A stretch of 64,000 nucleotides of DNA from Heliomicrobium modesticaldum Ice1. GTDB taxonomy: Bacteria; Bacillota; Desulfitobacteriia; Heliobacteriales; Heliobacteriaceae. Of this stretch, positions 12,295 through 14,523 are shown piece by piece. Each line of letters opens with the position of its first letter. The stretch's first letter is position 1. The translations under genes and the position numbers were made by a program. The notes below the pieces were generated by a model. It saw nothing but the letters and a program-made list of their open reading frames with translations, ran no database searches and had not been told where the DNA came from. The stretch is from assembly GCF_000019165.1 (NCBI RefSeq), contig NC_010337.2, forward strand, positions 1,417,001 through 1,481,000, read 5' to 3'.

Positions 12295-14142
12295 TCAGGC
12301 GCCAAAACCGGGACCTAGGAGCGCCCGCCACTTGTTCTGTACCAGCAGGTACTGTTTCTGCTGCGCCAGGTTGACGGCCTCCGTCGCCAGTTGGAGCGAG
12401 TGGGAAAGTAGCCGGCCGAACTGGTTGAAGGTGGCCGGGTTGGTCATCATGTACCCGTCGACAAAGTAGGTGGAATCAGAGGGATCGGCCAAGAAGGGTT
12501 TTTTCTGCTGGCTGAAGATCTGGTGGACGTAGCGGAACCAGTTGTATAGCCCTTCGGGACCCGGTTCGAGGCGGACCTTGCGTAGCAATAAGTCGGTGAG
12601 CATTTCCAAGTGCAGGGTGCGCAGGATGCGGCAGTTCGTGCGTTGCCAGGCTCGGAGGATGCGGATCAGAGCAAGGAAGGTTGGCCCGTGCCGCTGGAAG
12701 GCCGCTGACATCCACCGCTCCGGCGCCTGGGGATCGCGGGGGATCCACGTGTCAGGCCCGTTGGGAAGGTAGAAAACCTCCTTCTCCCCTTCCGCCAGCG
12801 CTAACAAGGGAGAAATACGGAAACTGTCCTCATGTCCCAAGAGGAGGAATGTCGGGTATTCTTCTATATCGCGGTTCCAACCGACCTTGGACAGGATTTC
12901 CCGCATCTGGCCAAGGACTACGGTCACAGGGGGCGTTTTGCCGTCGGGAGGGGCAATCTCCACAAGCAGGTCGAGGCTTTTTTTCGGCCGGATCATCGTT
13001 CCGCGCATGAACGATCCGCTCGGTCGGATCTTCCGCACGGGAAAGTCGGCGCGATCCTTCAGGGCATAGTGCATGTTCTGCAGCATCGTAAAGACCTGAT
13101 CGACATCGTCGCGATTCAGGCTGATCCGCCGTAGAAAGTGACGAAAAGCCTCGTCTGCTACAGGGAGCGGTTCCAGATAGGTCTGCACGAGCGGGGAAAG
13201 GCCGGCCGCCGCCGCTGCCGTCACCGCCGATCCCACCGGGCTGGCGCTGCCCCCTTGCTGTGTAGCGGCCTGGTCGAACGTTGCAGCTGTGACCGCAACA
13301 GAACTGGAGCTGGCACCGGTGACGGCTGAGACAGCGTCGGCAGCCGAGCTGCCGCCGGCAGTGCCGGTGCGCCCGAAGAAGCGCGAAGCGACGGAGGTGG
13401 AGCCCTTCGAACCCGTCAAGTCGCCTGGACTGACGGAACCGCCCTCGGGACTGCCGCCCGAACTGCCGGCGGAAACCCCCGCTGAGGAAGGGGGGACAGG
13501 GGGAATCGTCGCCGGCGGGGTGTTGTTCGGCAGGGCGAAGAAACGGGTCGCCTGGGGCGAAGGTGCGCTTTTTTCCTGGACGAAACCCAACTCGCTGTGG
13601 GAGAGCTCGTAGAGCGGCGTGTAGGAGAGGCCTTTGAGCTCCTGGATCCCCAGAAAGCGGAAGATGACCTTGTCGAGACTCTTGAGGAGCGGCTTTAGAA
13701 TCTGGAACGTCGACTCGTCCAACAGGACCTGATTAGGGGCGCTTTGAGCAGCCAGGCGGGCGGCCATGTCGATGGAAGCCCCCAGGTAATCGGTATCGGG
13801 AGTGCGCACTGGCATCACAAGGCCGAAGGAGAGGCCGATCTTGGTCTGAAAAGGCAGGTTCTCCTTGATGATGTTGTACTTGACATCTAAAGCTGCCAGC
13901 AACGCCGGCAGCGGATTCGGGAAGACGGCGTAGATAGCGTCGCCGATATGCTTGACCACCCGCCCCTGGTAAAGGTCAACGGTCTGGGCGCAGAGTTCGT
14001 TGTGGCGCAACGAGAGGGCGACGCCTTCCAGCGGCCCCAACTGCTGCTTCAGCCGAGTGGAATCGACAAGGTCGAAAAAGACGCTGCAGAGGGCCACGTT
14101 GTCTTGCAGTTGTTTGTATTGGTGAAACAGGCGCTCACGCAC
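12295..14142 (-). CDS. Class III nucleotide cyclase fused to a degenerate CD-NTase/OAS-like domain
   Basis: A soluble 615-residue protein with two recognisable parts. Residues 1-190 are a class III adenylate/guanylate cyclase domain: metal-binding D24 in FFDLVDST and D68 in KHIGDAIYAVF, base-reading K64 and D118 (TDYLG), and R129. The usual Asn of the VNxAAR motif is D125. A Pro/Ser/Ala-rich linker runs to about 330. The C-terminal part has the layout of CD-NTase/OAS enzymes: GSFMRGT near 375, LDLLV near 390, an ISPL...YLPN...W...DP block near 440-465, and LRTLHLEML near 509. Only one of the three expected acidic residues remains, so this half may be a binding domain. It converges with the receptor gene. 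Confidence 0.75.
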   Translation of the reverse strand: MRERLFHQYKQLQDNVALCSVFFDLVDSTRLKQQLGPLEGVALSLRHNELCAQTVDLYQGRVVKHIGDAIYAVFPNPLPALLAALDVKYNIIKENLPFQTKIGLSFGLVMPVRTPDTDYLGASIDMAARLAAQSAPNQVLLDESTFQILKPLLKSLDKVIFRFLGIQELKGLSYTPLYELSHSELGFVQEKSAPSPQATRFFALPNNTPPATIPPVPPSSAGVSAGSSGGSPEGGSVSPGDLTGSKGSTSVASRFFGRTGTAGGSSAADAVSAVTGASSSSVAVTAATFDQAATQQGGSASPVGSAVTAAAAAGLSPLVQTYLEPLPVADEAFRHFLRRISLNRDDVDQVFTMLQNMHYALKDRADFPVRKIRPSGSFMRGTMIRPKKSLDLLVEIAPPDGKTPPVTVVLGQMREILSKVGWNRDIEEYPTFLLLGHEDSFRISPLLALAEGEKEVFYLPNGPDTWIPRDPQAPERWMSAAFQRHGPTFLALIRILRAWQRTNCRILRTLHLEMLTDLLLRKVRLEPGPEGLYNWFRYVHQIFSQQKKPFLADPSDSTYFVDGYMMTNPATFNQFGRLLSHSLQLATEAVNLAQQKQYLLVQNKWRALLGPGFGA

Positions 14143-14450
14143 AGGAAGCCCTCCGATGTACTGCCCGGCATTCGGATCCCAGTCTAGACTGCCGGATGAT
14201 TGGGGAGAACTTCTCCCTTATGGTGGCGCATCCCTGCTAAAGGAGGATCTGAGGCTGAAAAAAACCGATTTGGCGCTTTATGGATTTTATGAGGGGGAAG
14301 GAGGTTCCCGATCAAGGAGCGGGAACATGAGCAAAAACACCTTCGCCCGCCATGGAATAAAACCCAAAAAAGAAGGATGAAAGTGTATACTGGCAAAAAG
14401 AGTGGGAAATAATTAATTTCGGGAGCTAAACCAGCTAAATGGCCGATCGT
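14143..14450. other. Gap between cyclase gene and groES promoter
   Basis: No established gene is seen. A hairpin GTTCCCGATCAAGGAGCGGGAAC lies near 14304-14326. It is followed by a 17-codon ORF (ATG 14327 to TGA 14380) whose ATG is 8 bases after AAGGAG; its peptide is very basic. The upstream, promoter side of the cyclase gene also falls in this gap. Confidence 0.3.
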
Positions 14451-14496: not shown

Positions 14497-14523
14497 TTAG
14501 CACTCGCTACCGGTGAGTGCTAA
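14497..14523 (+). promoter_or_regulatory. CIRCE operator (HrcA site)
   Basis: TTAGCACTC, nine bases, GAGTGCTAA: an exact match to the CIRCE consensus. The HrcA repressor binds it to control class I heat-shock genes. Its position between promoter and groES supports direct repression of groESL. Confidence 0.97.

Follow-up and report, generated by a model that had tools for sequence, protein, structure and literature searches.

Gene, domain layout and neighbourhood

The window analysed here is a stretch of 64,000 nucleotides from the genome of the photosynthetic bacterium Heliomicrobium modesticaldum, a single contig of 3,075,407 bases. It carries a gene in which a class III nucleotide cyclase is fused, through a linker, to a degenerate CD-NTase domain (Table 1). 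The reading frame is intact and begins with GTG. The linker is mostly missing from the shorter orthologues in our alignment.

Table 1. Features of the fusion gene, with positions in the window
Feature	Position	Strand	Basis or remark
Whole gene: class III cyclase, linker, degenerate CD-NTase	12295..14142	(-)	615 aa
Shine-Dalgarno-like GGAGG	14150..14154	(-)	Sequence; 7 nt upstream of start
Class III nucleotide cyclase domain, aa 1-190	13573..14142	(-)	PF00211 above cut-off, PDB profile matches, dN/dS
Low-complexity Ser/Gly/Ala/Pro linker, aa 191-314	13201..13572	(-)	Sequence, alignment, dN/dS
CD-NTase nucleotidyltransferase core, aa 330-465	12748..13155	(-)	SMODS, PDLC00823, hhalign
CD-NTase helical lobe, aa 466-613, most conserved part	12304..12747	(-)	Alignments, dN/dS
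Degenerate DxD, S389-L390-D391	12970..12978	(-)	Alignments
R442 at third catalytic acid	12817..12819	(-)	Alignments; Arg or Lys in all orthologues
R469 at Lid1 position (Thr150 in BcCdnD)	12736..12738	(-)	Alignments; BcCdnD residue roles from PMC13424991

The fusion is found in six Heliobacteriaceae, namely three Heliomicrobium, two Heliobacterium and one MAG. It is absent from the genomes G003 and G007, presumably Heliorestis-like, and from G006, whose genus name is likewise our assumption. Among 398 genomes of the phylum and 83 of the class we found no fusion outside Heliobacteriaceae, and the SMODS matches outside the family are stand-alone or otherwise built. One pattern scan of genome contigs across phyla also returned the fusion in Heliobacteriaceae only. 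No relatives were present in the viral contigs, phages or plasmids searched, and we therefore rejected a mobile or viral origin. The closest stand-alone relative found is a CD-NTase of 289 aa (PDLC00823, E 5e-86), which stands in tandem with another of 294 aa at L029:6952-9308, both with an intact DxD and beside a SLATT_4-like 2TM protein.

The gene lies between a convergent cheA-STAS-MCP cluster and a divergent groES-groEL pair in Heliomicrobium and Heliobacterium, and after addB-addA in the MAG. A perfect CIRCE operator is located upstream of groES (14497-14523), in the divergent intergenic region common to groES and the fusion gene. G003 and G007 have the same cheA-STAS-MCP-groESL locus with a second MCP gene in place of the fusion (L134:10134-11771 and L136:10622-12268). 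An earlier note on this DNA had set the gene beside a chemosensory operon and not a defence effector. This description is accurate, but the adjacency is syntenic only, since the Heliorestis locus exists without the fusion. A functional link to chemotaxis is unsupported for the same reason, and because the MAG copy adjoins addB-addA. We recognised no CBASS effector or accessory gene adjacent to the fusion gene, whose CD-NTase active site is lost too, and across the loci compared no partner gene is consistently adjacent.

The cyclase half

The first 190 residues had been described as a class III cyclase, and all of the residues named for it are in place: D24 and D68 for metal, K64 and D118 for the base, R129, and D125 where the transition-state Asn would stand. 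The Pfam family Guanylate_cyc (PF00211) matches aa 11-156 with 31 bits against a gathering score of 21.9. The nearest solved relatives in a PDB profile search are Ma1120 (5e-11) and Rv1900c (1e-10), both of which we take to be class IIIc. D24, K64, D68, D118 and R129 are invariant across the orthologues, although identity of the cyclase domain across genera is no more than 57-62%. Counted from residue 125, D118 (-7) and R129 (+4) stand where the mammalian class III numbering would place them, and the distance from D24 to D68 agrees with it too.

The Asn usual in class III cyclases is replaced by Asp in all orthologues, whereas 29 of 30 sampled cyclases from other Bacillota and heliobacterial proteins have Asn at the site and one has no aligned residue. 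Rv1900c aligns a His here. Ma1120 has Ala at the site and is active all the same, and its A164N variant has drastically lowered or abolished activity (PMC4215837). The activity of Ma1120 means that D125 is no argument for inactivity. The fusion protein resembles both of these enzymes in its five catalytic residues (K and D as in Ma1120), in having no GNIGS-type insertion and in lacking the transition-state Asn, and differs from them in having Asp and not Ala or His at that site and a CD-NTase as C-terminal partner. From its residues the cyclase half is predicted to be active and to make a cNMP, adenylate cyclase being the most likely activity. No other PF00211 protein is encoded in the H. modesticaldum genome. 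PycC models of PADLOC match the cyclase half weakly (E 0.0025-0.003), with no adjacent effector recognised.

The same genome encodes four proteins with a cNMP-binding domain. One of these is a CNB-DUF2225 protein in a 573 aa frame (G000:C1:2017187-2017513). It carries the cassette FGEMSLLEELPRSA, has its DUF2225 at the C-terminus and is on sequence grounds a candidate cNMP receptor. Its phosphate-binding cassette is canonical and it contains a long Ser/Ala/Pro repeat linker. Six other genomes of the family contain a clear PF00211 cyclase, and each of them has a close orthologue of this protein (48-91% identity); G003 and G006 have none. All of these six genomes carry a conventional cyclase, so the link to the receptor is not specific to the fusion and, among class III cyclases, points to the fusion alone only in H. 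modesticaldum.

The CD-NTase half

Several profile searches assign the C-terminal half to the CD-NTases. Pfam SMODS (cut-off 26.5) matches aa 331-479 with 29.8 bits, or with 31.9 when the C-terminal half is searched by itself, and the best PADLOC model is the oligonucleotide cyclase PDLC00823 (aa 330-613, E 2.5e-25). PDB profile matches are CdnD 6p82 (4e-12) and CdnC 6p80 (7e-10), and hhalign against a stand-alone CD-NTase profile covers 284 columns with a probability of 99.8 (E 8e-30). The homology to SMODS spans the full length, helical lobe included. AlphaFold models built from only four sequences have a pLDDT of 50.6 for the C-terminal half and 41.7 for the full length, too weak for interface or pocket geometry. 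Run on this low-confidence C-terminal model, Foldseek places CdnD at the top (E 2e-9) and VIA-align gives Z 12-14.5 for CD-NTases (13.6 for CdnD). We base the fold assignment chiefly on the sequence profiles and use the fold search as supplementary evidence.

Of the motifs named in the earlier note, GSFMRGT is present at 376, KSLDLLV at 388 and FRISPL at 441, and the unrelated fold that would have spoken against the assignment did not turn up in the profile or structural searches. We also rejected a shifted alignment: profile alignments to CdnD, CdnC and BcCdnD, as well as multiple alignments with stand-alone CD-NTases, set S389 opposite the first Asp and R442 opposite the third acid.

The metal triad is S389/D391/R442, compared with D/D/D(E) in relatives, and neither the DxD nor the third acid is present. 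For instance, CdnC has its catalytic acids in N-D-I-D and V-D-I-V-P, where the fusion protein reads K-S389-L-D391 and F-R442-I-S-P. The corresponding residues are S-L-D with Arg in the three Heliomicrobium, A-I-D with Arg in the two Heliobacterium and D-V-D with Lys in the MAG. The third site is therefore basic in all six genomes, and five of them have Ser or Ala at the first. The reading of this half as a pseudoenzyme, with Ser for the first acid and Arg for the third, is supported by the lack of an intact acidic triad in the close homologues. Loss of the first acid extends to five of the six genomes, but not to the MAG orthologue (L006/L011). By parsimony, the third acid would have been lost first. 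In BcCdnD, D73N (the first Asp, equivalent to S389) and D75N are described as catalytically inactive (PMC13424991), so the domain is predicted to be inactive in the five genomes that have lost the first Asp. Inactivity of the MAG copy is less certain.

We mapped the nucleotide pocket by transferring the BcCdnD contacts given in PMC13424991 through the alignments (the PDB chain numbering is that of the paper plus 7). Four contacts are kept, S53 as S377, R56 as R380, D75 as D391 and K178 as R497, the last being Lys in Heliobacterium and His in the MAG. Other pocket residues are replaced: D73 by S389, D123 by R442 and R111 by T431, the base-stacking F194 by L510 (Pro in H. mobile) and the lid residue H155 by P474 (Ser in H. 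chlorum). T150 becomes R469, which is Arg in all six orthologues, and the acceptor-site residues R111, S112 and T150 are all replaced. The donor-site phosphate contacts are thus retained, while the acceptor site and base stacking are gone and two basic residues have been gained. The catalytically dead BcCdnD D75N binds ATP with a Kd of about 140 nM (PMC13424991), making a nucleotide-binding role of a dead domain possible. It is nevertheless doubtful whether this one would bind an NTP, because the base-stacking aromatic residue and the lid His are lost.

Selection and conservation

Among the three Heliomicrobium genes, Nei-Gojobori dN/dS is 0.08-0.11 for the cyclase and 0.07-0.12 for the CD-NTase half, compared with 0.43-0.53 for the linker. 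Purifying selection on both halves is strong, and the linker evolves fast. The open frame of every orthologue and the low dN/dS led us to reject a decaying pseudogene. Within the CD-NTase half the ratio is 0.09-0.18 for the core and 0.04-0.06 for the helical lobe.

Identity in heliobacterial pairs is 53-69% in the helical lobe against 26-41% in the core. Pairs at 40-56% overall identity have a helical minus core difference of +0.26 to +0.29, compared with -0.23 to +0.06 for pairs of stand-alone CD-NTases with an intact DxD; the comparison includes few independent pairs, with sequences shared among them, and describes a pattern and not a test statistic. It seems that constraint once placed on catalysis now falls on the helical lobe.

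Discussion

On balance we lean towards reading the fusion protein as a class III cyclase, most likely of the adenylate type, with a catalytically dead CD-NTase domain that would control its output. This domain, descended from anti-phage messenger synthases, probably now serves as a switch. Its former donor pocket may bind an NTP or a similar phosphate-rich ligand, its conserved helical lobe may bind a partner, or both may occur. As class III cyclases work as dimers, binding could act by moving the two cyclase protomers closer together or further apart, or by turning them relative to each other. The CNB-DUF2225 protein, whose gene lies at another place in the genome, would then read the cNMP product.

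The main rival is that the dead domain is a protein-docking module without ligand sensing, its helical lobe holding a partner that localises or activates the cyclase, comparable to the surfaces of CdnD and CdnC that engage HORMA or Cap2. The strong constraint on the helical lobe would fit this well, as would the loss of base- and acceptor-site residues and the presence of CdnD-HORMA and CdnC-HORMA complexes among the nearest solved relatives. But pure docking would have no need of the GSxxR loop, the basic K178 site, D391 or the newly conserved R442 (or Lys) and R469, and it lacks a consistently adjacent partner gene. We regard docking as possible, though rather unlikely.

A bolder form of ligand sensing is also conceivable. 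With its acids changed to Arg or Lys and an extra Arg in the lid, the dead pocket might bind a phosphate-rich signal without metal and convert it into a cNMP signal. The signal might be a cyclic or linear oligonucleotide, a ppGpp-like alarmone or an NTP. We consider this combination a long shot. If it were true, a receptor would have evolved from a messenger synthase, cross-wiring two nucleotide-messenger systems.

The invariant D125 raises the question whether the cyclase is degenerate as well, the whole protein then being a non-catalytic scaffold or nucleotide-binding regulator. Inactive cNMP cyclase domains do occur in other signalling systems (PMC7159879), and Asn is nearly universal in the cyclases sampled. 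Still, every other catalytic residue has been kept through considerable divergence between genera, the Ala of Ma1120 shows that some enzymes dispense with the Asn, Rv1900c has a His aligned there, and this is the only class III cyclase of a genome that retains a candidate cNMP receptor with a canonical cassette. Degeneracy of both halves is in our view improbable.

Two further readings are very unlikely. That the C-terminal domain still works as a nucleotidyltransferase through an atypical metal site, giving one protein with two messengers, could draw on the D-V-D of the MAG orthologue and on the Gln found in the aligned third column of some CD-NTases (L021, L104, L105; 9ntn), but is most improbable given the Ser or Ala at the first Asp in five of six genomes, the inactivity described for BcCdnD D73N, the basic third site and the replaced acceptor residues. 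A solitary hybrid defence protein of CBASS or Pycsar type, turning phage sensing into cNMP, is hardly credible either: its domain does derive from the CBASS cyclase family PDLC00823 and its cyclase has weak PycC similarity (E 0.003), but there is no adjacent effector or CBASS accessory gene, the position between the chemotaxis operon and groESL is stable in two genera, evolution is slow and no relative was found in the viral contigs, phages or plasmids searched.

Our preferred reading, that of a cyclase regulated by its dead CD-NTase domain, can be set beside several known systems. The CBASS CD-NTases of PDLC00823 (clade C/D: P. aeruginosa CdnD 6p82, E. coli CdnC 6p80 and BcCdnD 9sa4) are homologous over the full length, core and helical lobe, and the fusion protein shares with them the GSxxR loop, the second Asp and the WR..LG..F end. 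Unlike them, it has lost the first and third acids, is fused to a cyclase, stands outside a CBASS operon and has an inverted conservation pattern. MiD51 (ADP-bound, PDB 4oag), like other inactive proteins of the nucleotidyltransferase fold, is a non-catalytic regulator able to bind nucleotide and is among the fold matches. However, it is a eukaryotic mitochondrial receptor and no cyclase regulator, and the match is a generic one.

The earlier note had called the tethering of a cyclase to a CD-NTase fold unusual. The fusion itself is confirmed, but the architecture is not new, as a 2020 review mentions rare proteins with SMODS and class III AC/GC domains and describes both domains as enzymatic (PMC7288161). 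These have the same domain pair and may include the fusion protein or its orthologues. The review's passages on them contain nothing on degeneracy, distribution or selection. We found no paper on the fusion protein in a literature search that covered few subscription journals. The review also describes AGS-C, a sensor domain common to adenylyl/guanylyl cyclases and SMODS proteins (PMC7288161), which is a precedent for shared regulation of the two families. Unlike AGS-C proteins, the fusion protein has no AGS-C domain detectable with Pfam, and the SMODS fold takes the C-terminal place.

CD-NTases have been studied as messenger synthases in immunity. If our preferred reading is true, a CD-NTase has here turned into a non-catalytic component of a cyclase, one that is conserved and stands outside defence operons. 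This would illustrate a route from synthase to receptor, and class III cyclases would gain a regulatory domain of a new class. The protein is from non-pathogenic bacteria and is amenable to direct experiment.

A second family of degenerate CD-NTases, stand-alone in this case, is present in Bacillota (L018, L019, L020, L092, L095 and L098; family f18). Its members have GSYGRGTAIKG and carry N-I-N, T-I-N or I-F-N instead of DxD, and their third acid is still Glu. The helical minus core difference of this N-x-N type family is mostly intermediate, with the helical lobe tending to be more conserved than the core.
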